Assembly: GCF_011769525.1 (NCBI RefSeq) | Contig: NZ_CP050440.1 | Span: forward strand, 8,232,001-8,296,000 | Direction: 5' to 3' | Origin: Tolypothrix sp. PCC 7910 | GTDB lineage: Bacteria; Cyanobacteriota; Cyanobacteriia; Cyanobacteriales; Nostocaceae | DNA length: 64,000 bases | In this document: positions 4,692 through 14,818 of the stretch, one piece after another | Layout of the letters: every line of letters begins with the position of its first letter | How positions within the stretch are numbered: position 1 is the stretch's first letter | Program-made: the position numbers and the translations under genes | Notes under the pieces: model-generated | What the model was told of the DNA's origin: nothing | The model's database searches: none | Seen by the model: only the letters and a program-made list of their open reading frames with translations

Positions 4692-5573
4692 TTATTTGCA
4701 GACTGCGACGCGATCGCGGCTAAAATTACTCCAAGTCAATTCGCCTTCGGCAATGGCTGACTGCAAGTCTGGATAAAGAGATAGTAGTGCTTGCGCTTCT
4801 AATAAAGGGGATTGCGAACAAGCTAAGGCTGCTGCTTGTTTTTCGGCAATGCTGCCCTCTGCCAATACTTTGGCTAAATCTGCAATGATTGCATTATCGG
4901 CAAATTTTCCTACTGGTCGCCACAATTCTGGTGATACTGGACGTTTAGCAGCCCAACGTTCATGGGCATAGTTTACCAACATCCTTGCTAATTCAGAGTT
5001 AGCACGTTGGTCTAGTCCCCAAATTTGATGCAAAGGACTACCTACAAATAAAGCCTTCAGCACCATCTGATTCCAAGCAATATTATCTAAATAATTTGCT
5101 GGATAGGGGTTGTTGAGTGCGATCGCACAGAATACATTAGTCATGTTACTGCGAATACCTTCAGCAGCACGTTGGCGATGTAACTCTGGGTGCGGCAGTA
5201 AAGGTAGACTTTGATACAGTGCAATCAACTCCCCCATATCCGCAACACTGAAAACTTTATCAAGCGATCGCAGATAATCCTCAGTGCGATCGTGGGGTAA
5301 AGCTAGCACTAATATTGTCCGACCAGCTTGATCCACAGTCCAATTACCAGGAGACCAACCAGGGACTAAGTCATTAGCTGCTGCTAAGTCTTGGGATGTC
5401 AGTTGTAAATTATTTTTACCGAGATAACGCGGTACAGCACTAAAAGAAGTATAAAATATCCTCTCAGGCGCGCCATTAGCAATCTGGCTTTGCTTTTGTT
5501 CCAACCAAGCCAGTGCTTCCTGGGACACAAACTGTATTAGCCAATGATGTAACAACTGGTTGACGCTACTCAT
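4692..5573 (-). CDS. eboA: EboA domain-containing protein
   Basis: This is a 293-aa soluble, helix-rich protein without signal peptide or membrane segment. The opening NQLLHHWLIQFVSQEALAWL, the FYTSFSAVPRYLGKNNL block and the central LFVGSPLHQIWGLDQRANSE-like region match the EboA family as I know it. It is the first gene of the minus-strand ebo operon, transcribed away from eboD. The molecular activity of EboA is unknown; the family is defined by its membership of ebo clusters. Confidence 0.8.
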   Translation of the reverse strand: MSSVNQLLHHWLIQFVSQEALAWLEQKQSQIANGAPERIFYTSFSAVPRYLGKNNLQLTSQDLAAANDLVPGWSPGNWTVDQAGRTILVLALPHDRTEDYLRSLDKVFSVADMGELIALYQSLPLLPHPELHRQRAAEGIRSNMTNVFCAIALNNPYPANYLDNIAWNQMVLKALFVGSPLHQIWGLDQRANSELARMLVNYAHERWAAKRPVSPELWRPVGKFADNAIIADLAKVLAEGSIAEKQAAALACSQSPLLEAQALLSLYPDLQSAIAEGELTWSNFSRDRVAVCK

Positions 5574-6101: not shown

Positions 6102-7307
6102 ATGCTCATTACACACAAGCCATCTACTAGCCTGCAACCAATTCAGCAATCTGTCTGTGTCAACTTTAACTATGATGTTTACTTTACCAATGGGTTGTTT
6201 CAATTAGACAATCCTTTACTAGCGCAAGTGATTGCCGCAGATGGAGAAATAACAGCAAAAAAAGTTTTAGTAATAGTAGATGGAGGGCTGTTAAAACATC
6301 AGCATGGACTATTAAAACAAATATCAGTTTATGCAGATTTTTATTCAGATGTCATCAACTTAAGTGATGCGCCAATCATCATTCCTGGTGGAGAAATAGT
6401 TAAAAACGAGCCAAGATTTGTAGAACAAATTCATCAGATGATCGATGCTGCAGGATTATGCCGCCACTCTTACGTATTAGCCATTGGGGGTGGAGCATTA
6501 TTAGACATGGTAGGATACGCAGCAGCAACAGCGCACCGAGGAATTCGGTTAATACGGGTGCCAACCACAGTGTTAGCGCAAAACGATTCCGGTATAGGGG
6601 TAAAGAATGGCATCAATGCATACGGCAAGAAAAACTTCCTCGGTACATTCATGCCACCTTATGCAGTATTGAACGACTTTGATTTTCTCACCAGTTTGAG
6701 CGATCGCGATTGGCGATCGGGCATTGCAGAAGCCGTCAAGGTAGCATTGATCAAAGATGCAGATTTCTTTGAATTCATTATGAAATCTGCTGATAAATTA
6801 GCGGCTCGTGATACGAGAGCTATGGAACAGCTAATTTATCGTTGTGCTCAATTGCATTTAGCACATATTGCCAATAGCGGTGACCCCTTTGAAAAAGGTT
6901 CATCCCGTCCCTTAGATTTTGGACATTGGGCGGCGCATAAATTGGAAGACATCACAAACTATAAATTACGCCACGGTGAAGCTGTTGCGATTGGTATAGC
7001 CTTAGATACCACATATTCCTATTTAACAGGGCTACTACCACAATCAGAATGGCAAAAGATTTTAGGCACACTTGAAACATTAGGCTTCACCTTGTACCTA
7101 TCTGCATTAAGAGAACAATTACATCAGCCAGAGCATCCCCATTATCTATTTAGAGGACTGAGCGAGTTCCGCGAACACTTAGGTGGCAAATTAACAATTA
7201 TCCTTCTTCAAGGAATTGGGCAGAAAATAGAAGTTAATCAGGTAGATATATCTGTTTATAAACAAGCTATATCCATGCTGCAAGATTGGGAACTATCACA
7301 CCCTTGA
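6102..7307 (+). CDS. eboD: EboD-like 3-dehydroquinate synthase family protein (sugar-phosphate cyclase)
   Basis: This is a 401-aa protein of the dehydroquinate synthase/sugar-phosphate cyclase superfamily. The NAD-binding GGGALLDMVGYAAAT block lies at residues 129-143, followed by RVPTTVLAQNDSGIGVKNGI. Candidate zinc ligands are Glu210 in SGIAEAVK, His275 in LDFGHWAAHKLE and His291 in RHGEAVAIG. It differs enough from primary-metabolism AroB (GALLDM for GVVGDL; NDSGIGVKNG for VDASVGGKTG) to suggest a specialised cyclase. It is the only ebo gene on the plus strand here, divergent from eboA, so it probably has its own promoter. I infer the EboD name from context and family. Confidence 0.85.
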   Translation: MLITHKPSTSLQPIQQSVCVNFNYDVYFTNGLFQLDNPLLAQVIAADGEITAKKVLVIVDGGLLKHQHGLLKQISVYADFYSDVINLSDAPIIIPGGEIVKNEPRFVEQIHQMIDAAGLCRHSYVLAIGGGALLDMVGYAAATAHRGIRLIRVPTTVLAQNDSGIGVKNGINAYGKKNFLGTFMPPYAVLNDFDFLTSLSDRDWRSGIAEAVKVALIKDADFFEFIMKSADKLAARDTRAMEQLIYRCAQLHLAHIANSGDPFEKGSSRPLDFGHWAAHKLEDITNYKLRHGEAVAIGIALDTTYSYLTGLLPQSEWQKILGTLETLGFTLYLSALREQLHQPEHPHYLFRGLSEFREHLGGKLTIILLQGIGQKIEVNQVDISVYKQAISMLQDWELSHP

Positions 7308-7419: not shown

Positions 7420-8553
7420 CTAATTACGCTCTGGTTTTAAGAGGCGGAACCAGAAGCGAGAACCACCTTCAGGAAGAGGTAAATAACCTATTTTCCCTCC
7501 CCAACGTTCAACTGTAATGCGACAAAAATAAAGTCCTAGTCCAGATCTACCCGATCTAGTTTTACCTTGAGAGAATTTTTGAAATAACGTTGGTACAAGC
7601 TGTGGCTCTACGCCTGTACCCCTGTCATCCACTGTCACTAAAACCGATTCTGCATCTTGTTTTAAGCCAATTTCCACAATAGATTCTGGTGGGCTATGGC
7701 GGAATGCATTTTCTACCAAATTAGAAATTACCCGATCCAAACGCGAGCGATCGCCTACTACTCTCCAGTCAGCTGTGAAGTCAATATTGCTGGCTATTTG
7801 TAATTGCATATCATTGAGGGTAAAGGTCGGACTTAAGACCTTGATTACCTCTTGTATAGAAGCGAGAACATTGGGTGCTTGTTCGGGATCGAGTGTGAAA
7901 GCTTCTAGGGATTGCATCTCAGCCGAGAATGCATTTAATATTTCCCGAATCAGCATTTCTTGCTTAACAGTTTGCTGTCTACCAACTTCTAAATGTTCTT
8001 TTCCTTTAGGTGTTAAGTTCTCAAATTCTAGCAGAGCCAGACAACAATTAATACTACTTAGCTGTCCTGCTATATCATGGATAATACAGTGAATCAATAC
8101 TTCTTTTTTCTGATTATCTTTTAATAATTGTTGATAAACTAATTGATTTTCTCTAGCTTTTTGAATAATAGATTGTTTTTCGTAAAAAGAATTATCTAGT
8201 AATTCGATTAATAAAATTTTTCGGTTATTTAAGCAAATAGCCGAGGCTTCAAAATGATATTCTTTCCCAGATAGGGCGCGGTCTGTCCAGAAACCCGAAG
8301 TTAGCTTTGTTGTGCTATTATTTTGCCAAAATTCTTCAGCATCAATCAAAAAGTTTTCTAAAAAAGGAAACTGTTCTTCTGGTATTAAGACTTCCATCCC
8401 TGATGTAATTCTGGGATGGCAAAAATGCCTTAACCAATTTGGTACTGTTCCAGTAACTTTAAATGAACCGACATTAATTCGCTCTAACACTAAAATATTT
8501 AAGGCTGCAAATAGGTCTGCTGTGATAGAGTCATTCATAATTTCATGCCGCAA
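7420..8553 (-). CDS. Sensor histidine kinase with N-terminal PAS-like domain
   Basis: This is a 377-aa soluble histidine kinase. Residues about 15-120 form a PAS-like sensory domain and 121-155 a linker helix. The phospho-acceptor is probably His159 in IIHDIAGQL. The ATPase domain has the N-box NLVENAFRHS (Asn282), G1 DDRGTG (309-314), F-box LFQKFS and G2 RSGLGLYF. No transmembrane segment is present, so it should act in the cytoplasm. It is the last gene of a five-gene minus-strand operon, 19 bp after the small PAS-like gene. Its sensory domain resembles that small protein: both have a conserved FLxxFL/FLPR segment followed by a strand ending in ILLIEL or ILMLDA. No response regulator is adjacent. 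Confidence 0.85.
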   Translation of the reverse strand: MRHEIMNDSITADLFAALNILVLERINVGSFKVTGTVPNWLRHFCHPRITSGMEVLIPEEQFPFLENFLIDAEEFWQNNSTTKLTSGFWTDRALSGKEYHFEASAICLNNRKILLIELLDNSFYEKQSIIQKARENQLVYQQLLKDNQKKEVLIHCIIHDIAGQLSSINCCLALLEFENLTPKGKEHLEVGRQQTVKQEMLIREILNAFSAEMQSLEAFTLDPEQAPNVLASIQEVIKVLSPTFTLNDMQLQIASNIDFTADWRVVGDRSRLDRVISNLVENAFRHSPPESIVEIGLKQDAESVLVTVDDRGTGVEPQLVPTLFQKFSQGKTRSGRSGLGLYFCRITVERWGGKIGYLPLPEGGSRFWFRLLKPERN

Positions 8554-8572
8554 TACATTAATTTATGGTCGA

Positions 8573-8974
8573 TTATTGCTTAAAAATTTTTCTTAATTTC
8601 TCTTGCAACAAACTAAATTCATTTGCTTGTTGTTGAGTAAGTAATTTATGACTTTCATCGCGAGTAGCATCTAACATTAATATCCAGTCACCTTCCTCAG
8701 AGGGAAAGAGATGGACATCTGCACATATCCCGTATTCAGTTTTCATTCGGGGGAGAAATAGGGGAAAATCATCTAATGGCAATAGTCCTTCCAGAAAAAA
8801 AACCTGTTCTGTAATATGCTCACCTGCTTGTAGGTTACTAACTCCATATGCTGCCAATTTCCCCCCCCACGCAGACAAGCAACCATCTTTTTTAACTAAT
8901 AGATAAGCAAGAGAGAGTTCTTCCACGATAAAAGTCAGAAGATAAGCAATCACAGGTGTGGGGATATCTAACAT
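8573..8974 (-). CDS. Small PAS-like protein of the GTPase/kinase operon
   Basis: This 133-aa protein has no recognised family name. It starts with a hydrophobic helix (residues 8-25), then AYLLVKKDGCLSAWGGKLAAYG, LQAGEHITEQ, DDFPLFLPRM and GDWILMLDATRDE, and ends in a charged helix. The strand/helix order and the WILMLDAT end strand look like a stand-alone PAS domain with a C-terminal coil, as in the sensory part of the next gene. The ATG directly abuts the TAA of the GTPase gene, so translation is probably coupled. It may pass the state of the GTPase to the kinase; this is inference. Confidence 0.7.
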   Translation of the reverse strand: MLDIPTPVIAYLLTFIVEELSLAYLLVKKDGCLSAWGGKLAAYGVSNLQAGEHITEQVFFLEGLLPLDDFPLFLPRMKTEYGICADVHLFPSEEGDWILMLDATRDESHKLLTQQQANEFSLLQEKLRKIFKQ

Positions 8975-9472
8975 TTATTCATCCATGATTTTTTCAGCAA
9001 GAGTTTGAAAAACTTCTGCTACACCCAGACCGTTTTTAGCACTTGTTTTCATGACAGTCCAACCTTTTAGCTGTACCGCATCGATTTCTACAGGGTCAAT
9101 CTCCCATTCATCTGTTAAATCCCATTTGTTAAGTATCATAATAAAGGGAACATTGCCAATTGTATCTTCTACTCTGGCTTGCAGGTCAAATGCTTTCTCT
9201 AAGGTATTCCTCCGCGTCCCATCAACTACTAATAAATAACCAGATGAACCCCGTAGATACGACATTCTTACTTTTTGAAATTCATCTTCTCCATAAAGAT
9301 CCCAAAGTATTAAATTAAGAGTTTTTTCTTGAATATTTAGTGTTTTTTTATCAATTTTTACTCCTACAGTAGTATGGTACTTTTCGGAAAAAATACTACT
9401 CACAAACCTCGATACTAAACTAGTCTTACCTGTGGCAAATGCACCCACCATGCAAATCTTTTTCTGGAGCAT
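8975..9472 (-). CDS. Ras-like small GTPase
   Basis: This 165-aa protein is a complete small G domain. G1 is GAFATGKT (residues 10-17), the switch I Thr is in YHTTVG (34/35), G3 is WDLYGE (Asp58, Gly61), G4 is NKWD (115-118) and G5 is TSAK (143-146). The residue after the G3 glycine, Gln in Ras, is Glu62 here, which may slow intrinsic hydrolysis. There is no lipidation motif. The family includes Rab/Ras-like bacterial GTPases such as MglA, which work with roadblock/longin-type partners in polarity and motility. It lies 2 bp after the OmpA-family gene and abuts the PAS-like gene. Confidence 0.92.
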   Translation of the reverse strand: MLQKKICMVGAFATGKTSLVSRFVSSIFSEKYHTTVGVKIDKKTLNIQEKTLNLILWDLYGEDEFQKVRMSYLRGSSGYLLVVDGTRRNTLEKAFDLQARVEDTIGNVPFIMILNKWDLTDEWEIDPVEIDAVQLKGWTVMKTSAKNGLGVAEVFQTLAEKIMDE

Positions 9473-9474
9473 AA

Positions 9475-11385
9475 TTATTGAGGTTGCTTCAGCTGAGAGG
9501 TGTCGGTTATCAATACTCTGAAGGTAACTCTACGGTTATCTGCTGGTGCTAATTCTGGTTGTGAAGATAGAGCAGTAGAACCTACACCCTCAGTTTGAAA
9601 TTTTCTGGGATTAATACCTTGAGCAGTTAGATAAGCAAGAATTTTATTAGCACGAGCTTGGCTGAGAAAATTATTGATTTGTTCTGTACCCGTAGTACTT
9701 GTGTGTCCTGAAATTTGCAAACTCACTTTTTTATTGAGAGATTGAGCAATATCTAAAAGCTGATTGATTTTTATTACTAAATTAGGAAGTTTATTCACTT
9801 CACCTGCAATCAACTCGGTTGTGCCTTCAGAAAAAAAGAGCATTTCTTGTTCTATTTGCTGTTTATATGACTCTAGTTGAATTAGGGCAATGTCCTGAAG
9901 ATTTTTGTCATTAAATTGAGTTACCCCGGGAATAAAACGCCATAAATTTTTTGCTTGGGAAATCCATTGGCGGGGTGCTGCACCATTGGCATTGAGAATG
10001 CCATTTTCGTCAACTTTTAGGGTTACGGTTTTTGGCGGTTGCAGCAATTTCTCAGATCTGAGGGTAATTAATTGGGGATCTAATGATATGTAAGGTTGCC
10101 ACTGACTGGTAACGCTTTTTGGATTGATATTTGCTTGCTGTATAAGTTTTGTAGGATCTACAGCTAAGGGATCGCGCATTCCGGAAATAAAATGTTTTCC
10201 CTGACGCTGCTCTGTATTAACTACTACGATTCCTGGTTGTGATTCCAGCTTTTGAATATAGGAATGCCAGCGAAATTGTTCTCGGATTGTGAAAAAACCC
10301 CAAATACCACTAGCGATCGCAATCGTACCTAAAAAACCCCAGGCATAAGTATAATTTTTTTTAGGCGGTGATTTATAGCCTTCTGCTAGACAAGCTTCTA
10401 AATAAGATTTACTGGCGGTAAATGGCTCTATATCCCCAGCGAAATCGTTCATTTCGCTACTCAATCGCAGATGGATTTTTTCGAGAGCATCTTTGAGGGT
10501 TAACCTAAATTCTTGAGGAGGTTTCCCCCGAATAATCGCAGCTAGTACTGCTTGCGGCCCTTCTTCAACCCAAATGGTAAGTTCTCCCAACTGCAAAGTT
10601 TGCAGTCCATCTTCTTTTTCTATATTGAAAGAATCTCTGACAAAATCCTGAATAGCTGTCAACATTGCTGAAACTAAATCAGGATCTTGAGTTTTTACCT
10701 GTGGTGCTATTAAGTGTTGCAATAATAATCCAGTATTTTTATGAATTAAAAATACTTGTTCTACTCGGTAAAGCAGCGTGCGGAGAAAAATTATTTCCGC
10801 GAATGATTTCCCTGTCCTTTTTGCTTCTAGTCGCCACTGCAAACTTTGTGGTGACAAGCTATGTTCTAAAGTTTGATTTAAAGATTGGAGCATCTCTTCC
10901 AAAGCTGTAGAAATTGCTTTGCGAGTTGCAGGGCCAATAATCGGAAAAAATGTTTCAGAAAGTCTGTTGTGGTCTTGTGTAATTGAGTTTTGAAGTGCTG
11001 TTTCTACAGTAGTAACTATGGCTTCACCTAATTGTTTATCCTGCTTGGAACGCAAAATTACAGCTTCTGGCAGCAGGCGGCTAATATCTTCTGCTTGAAT
11101 TTGGGGATTATCTAATCGCTCATAAAGTTTGTTTAGTTGATTTGGCTCAACACCAAGGAGTAAACTACGGATTGTATTTAATTCATCATTGTTTTGTGGA
11201 TGATTGTTGACAGGTGAATTGATAGAAACAGAATGAGGAGAAGATTTTGCAGCAGAATTTTCTGAACTAGATACTTGTGGTTCTTGGAAAGATATCGCTG
11301 GATTTATAGCTATGGTAATTTGCTTACCATTACTCAAAGATTTCAGGGATTCTTTAGCTACTTCATTAGTAGAATTATTACTCAT
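9475..11385 (-). CDS. OmpA-family membrane protein with cytoplasmic longin/roadblock-like region
   Basis: This 636-aa protein has four parts. Residues 1-65 are polar and disordered. Residues about 66-200 are helical. Residues about 200-315 (EQVFLIHKNTGLLLQHL, DPDLVSAMLTAIQDFV, LGELTIWVEEGPQAVLAAII) look like the longin/roadblock-like fold found in partners of Ras-like GTPases. One transmembrane helix follows at about 345-367. The periplasmic part has a BON-like stretch (380-465) and a C-terminal OmpA/MotB peptidoglycan-binding domain (about 515-628, with SQARANKILAYL and NRRVTFRV). It should span the inner membrane and bind the cell wall. Its neighbour is a Ras-like GTPase, which makes the longin-like region the natural docking site. 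The longin assignment is by pattern and needs profile confirmation. Confidence 0.8.
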   Translation of the reverse strand: MSNNSTNEVAKESLKSLSNGKQITIAINPAISFQEPQVSSSENSAAKSSPHSVSINSPVNNHPQNNDELNTIRSLLLGVEPNQLNKLYERLDNPQIQAEDISRLLPEAVILRSKQDKQLGEAIVTTVETALQNSITQDHNRLSETFFPIIGPATRKAISTALEEMLQSLNQTLEHSLSPQSLQWRLEAKRTGKSFAEIIFLRTLLYRVEQVFLIHKNTGLLLQHLIAPQVKTQDPDLVSAMLTAIQDFVRDSFNIEKEDGLQTLQLGELTIWVEEGPQAVLAAIIRGKPPQEFRLTLKDALEKIHLRLSSEMNDFAGDIEPFTASKSYLEACLAEGYKSPPKKNYTYAWGFLGTIAIASGIWGFFTIREQFRWHSYIQKLESQPGIVVVNTEQRQGKHFISGMRDPLAVDPTKLIQQANINPKSVTSQWQPYISLDPQLITLRSEKLLQPPKTVTLKVDENGILNANGAAPRQWISQAKNLWRFIPGVTQFNDKNLQDIALIQLESYKQQIEQEMLFFSEGTTELIAGEVNKLPNLVIKINQLLDIAQSLNKKVSLQISGHTSTTGTEQINNFLSQARANKILAYLTAQGINPRKFQTEGVGSTALSSQPELAPADNRRVTFRVLITDTSQLKQPQ

Positions 11386-11575
11386 TGCTAAAATTTCCTG
11401 ATATATAATAGATACTAAATTTAAGCGCGTTTAATTCTGGCGATTTAACTGTTGTAATAGTTGCCATAGCGCAGTTTTAACCTTTTAAATTTTCAATTTA
11501 TAAATTTATGTGATGTAGTAAAAACTGAGAATATAAACAGGATATAGGTATATTCTCTGTAGCTGCCTAATTTAA

Positions 11576-12184
11576 TCAAGACTTAATGTCAGAGTTCAAC
11601 CTCACAGCTAGCTCAGTAAACAAAGATGCTAGTTTGGAACGGTCGGTTTTATCTCGCCGCAGTTCCTGAGATTCTCGTTCTAGTAAAGTCAAGATTTCTT
11701 GATATTTTTGCCGGATATCATCCTGTAGGCTATTAGATTGGTTAAGGATCTGTTCGCGCAATTCCCGTTGGCTATTAGTAGTTTGTTCATCCAATTGGGC
11801 AAACTTCTTTTCTAAATTAATGGTGATATTTTTCTGTTCTTCAGCAAGCGCTTTCACTCCTGTATCTCTATCTAGTTGCTCATTTTTTAAGCGCTCTGTT
11901 AAAGAATCAACCTCTTTTTTAATATATAATTCTAAGTAATCTAGACGTTTTTTAGTCTCATCTCGTACGTTATTTAATTCTTTAACCAAACGGTCTTCTA
12001 AACGTGCAAATCTTTTTTCTACTTCTCTTACCTGGTTACCGAAAAGGATATCTCTGACTTTATCTAAACTGTTAAGTTCGGCGAGATTTGTCCCATTTGA
12101 TTGTGGTTTATTGATGTCCGAAATTGACCCCCCTTGCCCTGGCTCTCTGGAATTACTATTGGTGTATTCTTCAGGCGGGTTCAT
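11576..12184 (-). CDS. Coiled-coil protein, first gene of the GTPase operon
   Basis: This 202-aa protein has no recognised family name. After a polar, disordered N-terminus (1-35), residues about 40-190 are charged heptad-rich helix predicted to form a long coiled coil. The segment LNSLDKVRDILFGNQVREVE resembles the OmpA-family neighbour at residues 68-90 (ELNTIRSLLLGVEPNQLNKL), so the two proteins share a short domain. It lies 190 bp upstream of the OmpA-family gene on the same strand. It may be a scaffold or adaptor for the module. Confidence 0.75.
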   Translation of the reverse strand: MNPPEEYTNSNSREPGQGGSISDINKPQSNGTNLAELNSLDKVRDILFGNQVREVEKRFARLEDRLVKELNNVRDETKKRLDYLELYIKKEVDSLTERLKNEQLDRDTGVKALAEEQKNITINLEKKFAQLDEQTTNSQRELREQILNQSNSLQDDIRQKYQEILTLLERESQELRRDKTDRSKLASLFTELAVRLNSDIKS

Positions 12185-12600
12185 GGTTTTAATCCTTTTT
12201 TAAAGTGGAATTAGTTGTACTTTATAGTTGTTGTACCAGATCTGGGGCCCCAAATATCCCTATGTTGGGTAGAATCTTTAAATACAATCATCAAAAGCAT
12301 CTATCCTCAGATATAAATTTTTCTGAAGTAGAGGTTGCTATGGAGAGTCAATCTTACTCCCATCAAAGGATACCATTACTGAATTAGGGGTTATACCCTA
12401 CAGACTGCCATGTTTTTAGCGGTTAAAGAATGCAAACTAAGCAGAATTAGCTAGCGATCGCAAGGCATCATCAAAACGAGCATCGGATGTCACGAAATAT
12501 AAAGAAAAAATAAATATTTAAATTCATTCGACCGTAGGGTTGGTAATAGTACCACTGTGAATTCAAAATACCCTACGGGTAGAGCAAAGCGCTAGCTAAT
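12185..12600. other. Intergenic DNA, no supported gene
   Basis: This divides the coiled-coil gene (its upstream side) from the small ORF and stress-protein gene. It contains a gtaggg/ccctac inverted pair near 12533-12576 (palindromic-repeat relic). A possible protein fragment (TSDARFDDALRSLANSA, then stop) reads on the minus strand near 12438-12490 but has no start and is closed upstream, so I do not call it a gene. Promoter elements of the coiled-coil gene probably lie near its left end. Confidence 0.5.
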
Positions 12601-12603
12601 ATC

Positions 12604-12753
12604 CTAGAGTAAAAAGCGAAACAGCACATACAAAGCCGAAGCTACTAGTTGTAGTAGCATCACTGGAATACCGTACAGTGATAAAAGTAATGATGCTGAG
12701 GATCGCTTGCCAATTTTCCACGCTTTCCCTCTCTTAAGTCTAATTATCTGCAT
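12604..12753 (-). CDS. Possible 49-aa small membrane protein
   Basis: The frame runs from an ATG at 12751-12753 to a TAG at 12604. The product starts MQIIRLKRGKAWKIGKRSSA, very basic, followed by a single hydrophobic helix (residues about 21-49: LLLSLYGIPVMLLQLV and onward) ending in RFLL. A basic head plus one membrane helix is typical of cyanobacterial small proteins. Against it, there is no good ribosome-binding site, and a rho-independent terminator for the upstream stress-protein gene ends just before the ATG. Transcription would need read-through or another start. Confidence 0.3.
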   Translation of the reverse strand: MQIIRLKRGKAWKIGKRSSASLLLSLYGIPVMLLQLVASALYVLFRFLL

Positions 12754-12761
12754 AATAATGA

Positions 12762-12790
12762 AAAAAGCCACCTAAGTATAGGTGGCTTCT
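12762..12790 (-). terminator. Rho-independent terminator after the universal stress protein gene
   Basis: On the minus strand agccacct, a six-base loop, aggtggct and then a run of T form a classical terminator (plus-strand stem positions 12766-12773 and 12780-12787; the A-run 12761-12766 is the T-tract). It lies about 175 bp downstream of the stress-protein stop. Confidence 0.8.
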
Positions 12791-12965
12791 TGAGCTAGCA
12801 TTCCTTACTTGATTTGTGAATTACTCCCCAAGGCTGGGAACACAATAAATAAAAAAGGGAACGAAAAAGAAGCGAATTAGACGTAATGTGGAGTTTTTCA
12901 GCAATCAAATCGGAATGTAAGACATTTTAATTAAATGAAGAGGAACTGAACTCTATAGCCCTGGT

Positions 12966-13625
12966 TTATTCTTCAATACCACTGGGGATACCTAAAACAG
13001 CACAGGGGAAATCGGAACCTAGTGCGCGAATAATAGGATGCTCGACAGATCTACAACCGATAAATAGGATATCGGCAGTTTCTAATTCCACAACTTTTTT
13101 TAGTTCGGTAGCAATTGAACCAAACCGCAAATGGGATTTAAAGGAACCTTGCCATTCCTCTGCTAGACTACGTGCTTGCCATAAAATTTGGTCTGCTTGT
13201 TGGATAACAGCTAAGGATTTTTCTTGTAAATTTGGTGCAATAACTGTTAGTTTTGGTTGAGTTAAAACGGGTGTGACAGATTTTGATACATTGCTTGTAG
13301 GACACTCTAAAGGAGTGAGATTTCTACTAAAGCTAGAGATATCTGTATACTGACTCTTTTGTTTGTCTGCTACCACATAGACAGCTTGAACTGTGACTTG
13401 GGTGTTTGTAGCCAAGCGCGTTTGATGAGCAATCCAAAAGGCAATATCTAATGCAGTATGACTTTTGGGAGATGCATCATAAGCGACAATTAAGTTGACT
13501 GGTTTTGTAGTAGAACCTTGTATAGAAGAGTTTTTTTCAGGTTCTGGTAACAACACCATTTGTTCAATTAAGTCGTCTCGACCTATAGTGCTTTGTAGGC
13601 GCACTAACATTGGCTTGATTTTCAC
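12966..13625 (-). CDS. Universal stress protein (UspA family)
   Basis: This 219-aa protein has a UspA-type fold. The first strand and loop read NLIVAYDASPKSHTALDIAFWIA, and the C-terminal part has DILFIGCRSVEHPIIRALGSDFP, equivalent to the ATP-binding GxRG/S region of the family. The central section (about 95-140) is longer than in minimal Usp proteins. No membrane segment is present. Upstream, at about 13800-13945 on the same strand, there is a c-di-AMP riboswitch, so expression is probably set by c-di-AMP. A strong terminator follows. The ligand and partners are unknown. Confidence 0.85.
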   Translation of the reverse strand: MKIKPMLVRLQSTIGRDDLIEQMVLLPEPEKNSSIQGSTTKPVNLIVAYDASPKSHTALDIAFWIAHQTRLATNTQVTVQAVYVVADKQKSQYTDISSFSRNLTPLECPTSNVSKSVTPVLTQPKLTVIAPNLQEKSLAVIQQADQILWQARSLAEEWQGSFKSHLRFGSIATELKKVVELETADILFIGCRSVEHPIIRALGSDFPCAVLGIPSGIEE

Positions 13626-13735
13626 AGCTTAACTTCTCTCCCATAAAACAAATTACTAATGAGAAGCAGGGTAACCAACTTTGTCTTTTGTCATTTGTCC
13701 TTTGTCTTTTGTCATTTGTTCAAATTTCTTACCAA

Positions 13736-13768
13736 TGACGAATGACGAATGACGAATGACGAATAAGT
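13736..13768. repeat. Heptameric tandem repeat (atgacga)
   Basis: About four atgacga units lie between the riboswitch aptamer and the start of the stress-protein gene, within its leader. An imperfect run of tttgtc/atttgt units precedes it at 13680-13720. Confidence 0.8.
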
Positions 13769-13799
13769 AAAATCGGTAAAAGAAACCCCAATAACAACT

Positions 13800-13945
13800 G
13801 GTCTAAAAGCCAAAGTTCTTGGCGGTTCCTTCCACTGCCGACGGAGTTAGCTGACGGGCTAAGACTGGAAGGTGTCTCTCATAAAGATTAGCCCCAAACA
13901 TTGGTTCCTCCGCTTCAAATCCAAAAGTTGACGAATTTGAATTAG
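13800..13945 (-). promoter_or_regulatory. c-di-AMP riboswitch (ydaO-yuaA type) upstream of the universal stress protein gene
   Basis: Read on the minus strand, the element has the two conserved blocks of the ydaO-yuaA class: GCGGAGGAACCA (13913 down to 13902) followed by TTGGGGCTAATC, and CCCGTCAGCTAACTCCGTCG (13858 down to about 13839) followed by GCAGTGG. Spacing and order match the known aptamer. This class usually turns transcription off when c-di-AMP is high. The target is the stress-protein gene starting at 13625. Boundaries are approximate because the outer stem is not certain. Confidence 0.88.
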
Positions 13946-13975
13946 GCTACCCACTATTAAGAATGATAATCTAAT

Positions 13976-14818
13976 TTATTCGTCTTGGCTAAAATAACGG
14001 TCAAGAAAATTCAGGGCGTGGTTACGAAGTTCAAAATATTCTTTTGAGTTTCGCATGGCAGAGCGATCGCGTGGATGGGAAAAAGGCACCTCTAATATTT
14101 CTCCGATTGTCGCCGCCGGGCCATTAGTCATTAATACGATGCGATCTGACATATAAATCGCCTCATCGACATCGTGAGTAATCATCATTACGGCTTGGCG
14201 ATGATTTTCCCAAATATCCAATACTTGCCGCTGCAATTTACCTCTAGTTAACGCATCTAAGGCACCAAAAGGCTCATCCATCAGCAACATCTTTGGGCGA
14301 ATTGCTAAAGCTCTAGCAATACCCACACGCTGTTTCATTCCTCCTGAAATTTCATCAGGATATTTATCAGCTGCAGCTGTTAAGTTTACCATTGCTAAAT
14401 GTTCATTCACAATGCTAATTTTCTCAGCACGAGTGGCATTTTTTAGCACTTCATCTACTGCTAAACGGATATTTTCTCTTACTGTTAACCAAGGTAAAAG
14501 CGAATAATTTTGAAATACCATCATCCTTTCAGCGCCTGGCTGACGGATTTCTTTACCATCTAGCCTTACTGAGCCGGAAGTAGCTTTTTCTAATCCCGCT
14601 ACAATTTTTAACAATGTAGATTTTCCACAACCAGAGTGACCAATTACAGAAATATATTCATCTTCACCAATCGAAAGATTAACACCATCTAAAACGACAA
14701 AATTTCCTTTATCTGGTGTGGGATAGGACTTGACTAAATTCTCAATTTCTAGGAAACCATTGCGGGGCATAACTTCGTTATGAGTATTGATAGGTACTGA
14801 GGTAGATTTCATGCTCAA
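13976..14818 (-). CDS. ABC transporter ATP-binding protein (NrtD/CmpD/SsuB type)
   Basis: This 280-aa nucleotide-binding subunit has Walker A GHSGCGKST (residues 60-68), the Q-loop VFQNYSLLPW, signature ISGGMKQRV (157 on), Walker B MLLMDEPFGALD (177 on) and switch His in MMITHDVDEA. The sequence is of the nitrate/sulfonate/taurine/bicarbonate group. It is the third gene of the operon after permease and binding protein, on the same strand. A second riboswitch begins just past its stop and serves the next gene. Confidence 0.9.
   Translation of the reverse strand: MSMKSTSVPINTHNEVMPRNGFLEIENLVKSYPTPDKGNFVVLDGVNLSIGEDEYISVIGHSGCGKSTLLKIVAGLEKATSGSVRLDGKEIRQPGAERMMVFQNYSLLPWLTVRENIRLAVDEVLKNATRAEKISIVNEHLAMVNLTAAADKYPDEISGGMKQRVGIARALAIRPKMLLMDEPFGALDALTRGKLQRQVLDIWENHRQAVMMITHDVDEAIYMSDRIVLMTNGPAATIGEILEVPFSHPRDRSAMRNSKEYFELRNHALNFLDRYFSQDE

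Follow-up and report, generated by a model that had tools for sequence, protein, structure and literature searches.

A five-gene cluster in the cyanobacterium Tolypothrix sp. PCC 7910 is almost certainly a Group 1 Rup signalling operon, in which, at a probability of roughly 0.6, a switch made of a longin domain and a small GTPase acts on effectors headed by a PAS domain. The cluster lies in a 64,000-nucleotide stretch of contig NZ_CP050440.1 (positions 8,232,001 to 8,296,000; hereafter the window). An earlier note on this DNA had claimed five open reading frames (ORFs), and all were present on the minus strand where it had placed them. In order they encode a coiled-coil candidate, a longin/OmpA protein, a small GTPase, a stand-alone PAS protein and a PAS-headed histidine kinase (Table 1). 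The interpretation in that note held in part: its longin domain, PAS domains and conserved gene order were borne out, and its statement that no system of this composition had been described was not, as Wuichet and Søgaard-Andersen (2014; PMC4316618) had already described Group 1 Rup GTPases among genes of these kinds (cited papers are represented here by excerpts of their text). Because the Group 1 Rup features that we tested in the GTPase, the OmpA protein and the output glutamine were all found, we regard the composition as known; the idea of a new system was dropped in view of that paper.

In a comparison of 107 distinct relatives, the G1, G2, G4 and G5 motifs of the small GTPase are intact and the catalytic glutamine is missing from G3. 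The position of Gln61 is taken by Glu62 in the window and by glutamate in 89 of 89 canonical relatives; in 18 divergent GTPases the G3 position holds histidine (8), serine (5), glutamine (4) or asparagine (1). Among PDB sequences the nearest was Rab-23 (4.6e-25), and the best 60 of 651 matches were Rabs or close kin. Rup GTPases form the group closest to Rab, Rho, Ras and Ran, a relation that trees have not resolved (PMC4915359). The neighbouring OmpA protein combines a conserved cytoplasmic domain, a transmembrane (TM) helix called by hydropathy only and an OmpA domain; the output carries an invariant glutamine in its N-terminal region, and the gene for a coiled coil (assigned by eye) is present and conserved.

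This is the arrangement given for Group 1 Rup in the excerpts of PMC4316618, namely a coiled-coil protein, a protein with an unknown domain, a TM segment and an OmpA domain, a GTPase without the G3 glutamine, and an output with an invariant N-terminal glutamine. The unknown domain is unnamed there, whereas in the window it is predicted to be a longin domain; the excerpts also mention no stand-alone PAS gene, whereas the window has one, and they give a diguanylate cyclase/phosphodiesterase fusion or a kinase as the typical output. They state that no member of the group has been experimentally characterised, save for the transcription of one in Nostoc punctiforme. Among the titles and abstract openings listed by a search of open-licence PMC papers, none dealt with an experimentally studied Rup system or joined a longin domain with the Rup/OmpA protein.

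A genome scan with the GTPase as query placed the nearest relatives of the locus in the Nostocales. From 172 GTPase relatives, 80 loci (L006-L085) were kept to count the neighbourhood, an output being any ORF with a phmmer match to the window kinase. The earlier note had proposed gene order in other genomes as a check, and coiled coil, OmpA protein, GTPase and output were all present, in that order, in 74 of the 80. Three of the six exceptions (L076, L083 and L084) run into contig ends, no coiled-coil match was found in L060, whose OmpA ORF is short, or in L069, and L082 lacks both upstream genes. A relative of the coiled-coil candidate is present in 75 loci, and ten loci are non-cyanobacterial (Blastocatellia, Acidobacteria, Desulfobacterales and kin, Nitrospirales/Nitrospira, Nitrosospira). 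The gap between the OmpA protein and the GTPase (median 14 bp in 77 loci) is 2 bp in the window, and that between the GTPase and the PAS protein is 0 bp, the commonest value (44/63 loci), both as previously reported. The "tight order" claimed for all five genes applies to four of them, because 190 bp separate the coiled-coil candidate from the OmpA protein; the gap before the kinase is 19 bp from a TTG start at 8553 or 34 bp from an in-frame ATG at 8538. The kinase gene is broken into two ORFs in two relatives, L023 (6729-7853) and L056 (6968-8085).

Residues 200-315 of the OmpA protein had been called longin-like by pattern, with a lack of any longin or roadblock profile match named as the result that would count against the call. 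The sequence of this region matched neither Longin nor Robl_LC7, and its predicted structure is a longin. The model shows the strand and helix order b-b-a-b-b-b-a-a across the whole longin, and residues ~203-338 very probably adopt this fold. Profile A1 of the cytoplasmic region was built from 45 of 77 aligned OmpA proteins (window included) after a redundancy cut, excluding ORFs of 500 aa or less; seven of its 25 invariant columns fall at 184-196, the first longin helix. Remote longin relatives often escape sequence profiles. Foldseek matches were re-scored by VIA-align, which for both longin and PAS works on Foldseek's own matches and is not independent of it; among the best for the longin was Fuzzy, part of the Rab23 exchange factor (PMC6864590). 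The pairing of Rab-23 at the head of the GTPase matches with Fuzzy among the longin matches is suggestive only. Longin and roadblock domains share a common mode of GTPase binding (PMC3521125, PMC10933270), and the longin domain probably contacts the GTPase.

Could the domain instead be an MglB-like roadblock, and the set a wall-tied MglAB polarity system? We consider this very unlikely. MglB does appear among the Foldseek matches (3t1r_C, E 1.6e-3, TMt 0.43), and both systems join a small GTPase to a protein of related fold, but here the partner is a longin rather than a roadblock, it is membrane-bound, and the GTPase belongs to another family. MglAB membership was therefore dropped on the longin-type predicted fold, the lack of a Robl_LC7 match in the window and a GTPase nearest to Rabs. 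The MglA/MglB comparison drawn in the earlier note stands as an analogy only, as the genome has a separate pair of this kind: at C1:3862427-3863415 (L003) a roadblock protein adjoins a small GTPase, and the sole Robl_LC7 match in the genome at E <= 1 lies there (C1:3862427), outside the window. The window also differs from eukaryotic longin-Rab pairs (Fuzzy-Inturned/Rab23, Mon1-Ccz1/Ypt7, TRAPP/Ypt1) in its bacterial OmpA anchor and in its presumed effectors, which are signalling enzymes; by sequence, A1 reached no PDB longin, its one match to a PDB sequence being at chance level (E 0.076).

A1 matched in 45 of 386 cyanobacterial genomes, and once in the window genome (8.76 Mb, 7 contigs). A divergent cyanobacterial clade has larger longin/OmpA proteins, with open frames of 709-1271 aa; in many of these (L098-L115) the profile has more than one match to a part of the helical region that precedes the longin. 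The short divergent loci (L098-L115, ~3.7 kb each) contain the GTPase in 13/18 and a coiled-coil match in 11/18, and the longer ones (L116-L128) in 12/13 and 10/13, respectively. The GTPase is placed after the longin protein in 13 of the 18 short and 12 of the 13 longer loci.

The stand-alone PAS protein has a PAS fold in its predicted structure, and alignment supported a PAS domain at the N-terminus of the kinase, both as proposed earlier. A PAS profile (A2) was made from 51 of 67 prepared rows, taken from loci next to longin proteins; the window kinase, 13 other rows of kinase type, L006 and L053 were left out. All 51 PAS-type and divergent rows have the PAS glutamine. Among 84 aligned kinase-position ORFs, Q131 is present in all 82 that hold the position and H159 in 71, the remaining rows being non-kinase outputs, fragments or gaps. 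The glutamine sits in a helix behind the PAS core in both the kinase and the bare PAS protein, and it is still invariant in PAS domains outside the stand-alone genes, which are only 14-49% identical to the window's. One PAS family heads unrelated catalytic domains (cyclase, GGDEF-EAL, SpoIIE, sigma-54 activator and kinase), and on balance we favour a contact between the GTPase and the PAS domain.

The gene at the stand-alone PAS place varies in length. In L077 (Desulfobacterales) it encodes a PAS domain plus a class III cyclase and is present twice (Guanylate_cyc 6e-21, 5e-21), and in Acaryochloris-type and one other cyanobacterial loci it is similar in size. Its C-terminal part had no Pfam match above cut-off in L071 and L073; a cyclase profile recognised this part in 5/5 of the Acaryochloris-type and other loci (E 1e-23 to 8e-12; hhalign probability 99%). 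In 54 of the 80 loci the gene is short and lacks the cyclase part; that of L069 encodes only 93 aa. The simplest reading is that the small PAS gene is a remnant, presumably left by stepwise loss of the cyclase, with the PAS domain and its glutamine kept.

Across the 386 genomes, the PAS profile was found in 48 (with scoring limited to 10 candidates per genome), the longin profile in 45 and both in 44, leaving one genome with longin and no PAS and four with PAS and no longin. In genera g2 and g7 the two profiles were present or absent together among the genomes listed. Counted with one row per longin protein (52) and without weaker partial matches of the same proteins, 50 of the 85 PAS matches have a longin protein within 12 kb; the other 35 do not, and 31 of these are in genomes possessing a longin protein. 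This co-occurrence suggests that the PAS-Gln domain is a dedicated effector domain; its formal significance is inflated, as shared ancestry was ignored and the PAS profile was drawn from longin-adjacent loci. In the window genome, a protein at C1:4843329-4845701 (L142 3330-5702) has a PAS-Gln domain followed by PAS, GAF, PAS and a class III cyclase, and is a candidate distant effector.

It is rather improbable that the PAS domains act as ordinary sensors of ligands or redox state, with the GTPase/longin/OmpA core a separate envelope device merely sharing their operon. Co-occurrence over 386 genomes, extending to distantly encoded PAS proteins, and a glutamine that stays invariant among such dissimilar domains argue against it, even though PAS domains usually bind small ligands, the stand-alone PAS gene is absent from 11 cyanobacterial loci, and 17 of the 52 longin-protein loci have no PAS-profile match within 12 kb.

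From the parts, their predicted folds, their conservation and their co-occurrence, we infer the following scheme for the longin-GTPase switch. The OmpA domain would tie the longin to the cell wall, so that the longin would report envelope state or fix the signalling site. The longin would bind the GTPase and set its nucleotide state or place, and the GTP-bound GTPase would dock on the PAS domain of effectors and alter their activity. The excerpts of PMC4316618 speculate that the invariant glutamine in the N-terminus of the output stands in for the one missing from the GTPase; by this idea, it may complete the GTPase active site and make each effector an off switch as well. The kinase encoded in the operon is probably controlled by the switch and would hand the signal to a response regulator whose gene lies elsewhere. 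Because the bare PAS protein would keep the docking surface and lacks an output, its likeliest role is to compete for the GTPase or to switch it off. An experimental precedent is E. coli RdcA/RdcB-DgcE, in which a GTPase and its partner control a signalling enzyme via its N-terminal domain (PMC6510439). This is an analogy and not a relative, RdcA being dynamin-like and binding a membrane MASE1 domain.

The signal may instead run as in the actinobacterial conservons (CvnA-D), although we think this unlikely. The kinase would then sense upstream and alter the longin/GTPase pair, and the GTPase would be the output, acting on, for example, envelope growth or motility. The excerpts of PMC4316618 read conservons in this way and liken Group 1 Rup to them; conservon operons likewise encode a kinase, a small GTPase and a partner whose fold is related, and no response regulator was found in the five flanking ORFs scanned. 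As described there, they differ from the window in an MglB-like roadblock partner, no OmpA protein and a GTPase of MglA Group 2. Behind one constant N-terminal PAS stand very different C-terminal output domains, a pattern that suggests a shared input feeding variable outputs and speaks against the conservon direction.

Several observations weigh against the proposed switch. The longin assignment comes from a single predicted model (overall pTM 0.51) in which the helical part (63-202) is poor, mostly at pLDDT about 45-76, and no sequence profile supports it: Pfam Longin had no match in the window and two weak ones in the whole genome (E 0.7 and 0.8), both outside it. The TM call, and with it the probable topology of the longin/OmpA protein, comes solely from a Kyte-Doolittle maximum of 1.48, under 1.6; the maximum exceeds 1.4 in 76 of the 77 aligned OmpA proteins (window included), and the PAS protein, a compact soluble domain in its model, reaches 1.87 at residue 9. 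An aspartate and an arginine of OmpA domains contact peptidoglycan. Arg578 is kept in all 77 proteins, and the usual aspartate position holds D in 27, N in 32 and S in 18; in the window it is Ser563, so wall binding may be weak, although the domain presumably anchors the longin protein to the wall.

The role of the glutamine and the reach of the system are weakened as well. Four of the 18 divergent GTPases retain a G3 glutamine; for this reason we do not accept the PAS glutamine as a proven GTPase-activating residue, and a catalytic role for it is doubtful. In L117 and L122, the two of these four whose output was aligned, the PAS glutamine is present in the output all the same, which weakens the idea of trans-catalysis. 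Some GTPase-adjacent outputs, the receiver-kinase of L126 and the Ser/Thr kinase of L121, have no PAS domain. The 17 longin loci without a nearby PAS match comprise 15 in the divergent clade and two canonical ones (G335 and G098 C12). Five of the 18 short divergent loci have no GTPase within the 3.7 kb examined, and L127 has longin/OmpA and coiled-coil genes (11204-14249) with no GTPase match in 15 kb. The lack of a response regulator among the five flanking ORFs scanned also counts here, and every contact between the components is inferred.

Neither Pfam nor NCBIfam put a name to the cytoplasmic region of the OmpA protein or to the PAS-like protein, and Pfam gave nothing above cut-off for the coiled-coil candidate, whose best 19-residue hydropathy is 0.23. 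A promoter scan found 13 sites vs 16.0 expected, and 8 terminator-like sites were found vs 4.2 expected, one of them a hairpin with a T-run upstream of the operon (12791-12762). Farther upstream lies a c-di-AMP (ydaO/yuaA) riboswitch (RF00379, 13821-13958, minus strand, 59.6 bits); the ORF ~200 bp downstream of it (12966-13625) looks by eye like a universal stress protein and had no NCBIfam match at 1e-10. Just downstream of the operon is an EboA-family metabolite-traffic gene (4692-5573, minus strand), divergent from a 3-dehydroquinate synthase gene (6102-7307, plus strand).

Table 1. Features of the Rup operon, in window coordinates.
Feature	Position	Strand	Basis or remark
Coiled-coil candidate protein, 202 aa, no TM segment	11576..12184	-	coiled coil by eye
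Longin / one-TM / OmpA protein, 636 aa	9475..11385	-	OmpA PF00691 1.2e-12
Cytoplasmic helical region, residues 63-202	10780..11199	-	helices in predicted model
Longin domain, residues ~203-338	10372..10779	-	predicted fold
Probable single TM segment, residues 349-367	10285..10341	-	Kyte-Doolittle maximum 1.48
OmpA-type (peptidoglycan-binding family) domain, residues 543-609	9559..9759	-	Pfam
Rup-type small GTPase, 165 aa, G3 DLYGE	8975..9472	-	Pfam Ras 8.3e-32
Stand-alone PAS protein, 133 aa, invariant Gln115 in C-terminal helix	8573..8974	-	
PAS-headed histidine kinase	7420..8553	-	HATPase_c 3.8e-24; TTG start, in-frame ATG at 8538
Kinase Gln131 codon	8161-8163		TTG numbering
Kinase phospho-acceptor His159 codon	8077-8079		TTG numbering

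The operon is a well-founded observation of a known Rup system whose composition was already published. To this the analysis adds the identification of the longin, a PAS effector domain shared by many outputs, some of them encoded far away, and the view that the small PAS gene is a remnant cyclase. A fold best known from eukaryotic membrane traffic would stand beside a switch protein related to eukaryotic ones in a conserved bacterial operon. It is conceivable, if less likely than the general scheme above, that this is a true bacterial pair of a longin and a Rab-like GTPase that is anchored to the wall through the inner membrane and drives plug-in effectors (kinases, cyclases, GGDEF/EAL proteins, phosphatases and sigma-54 activators) through a shared PAS docking domain that supplies the missing glutamine, with some effectors encoded at a distance and some PAS genes now catalysis-free regulators of the GTPase. 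If such a pair is real, the origin of the longin-Rab partnership would be testable in culturable bacteria, and the system would offer a simple bacterial case of Ras-effector logic, with one switch, one docking domain and many outputs.
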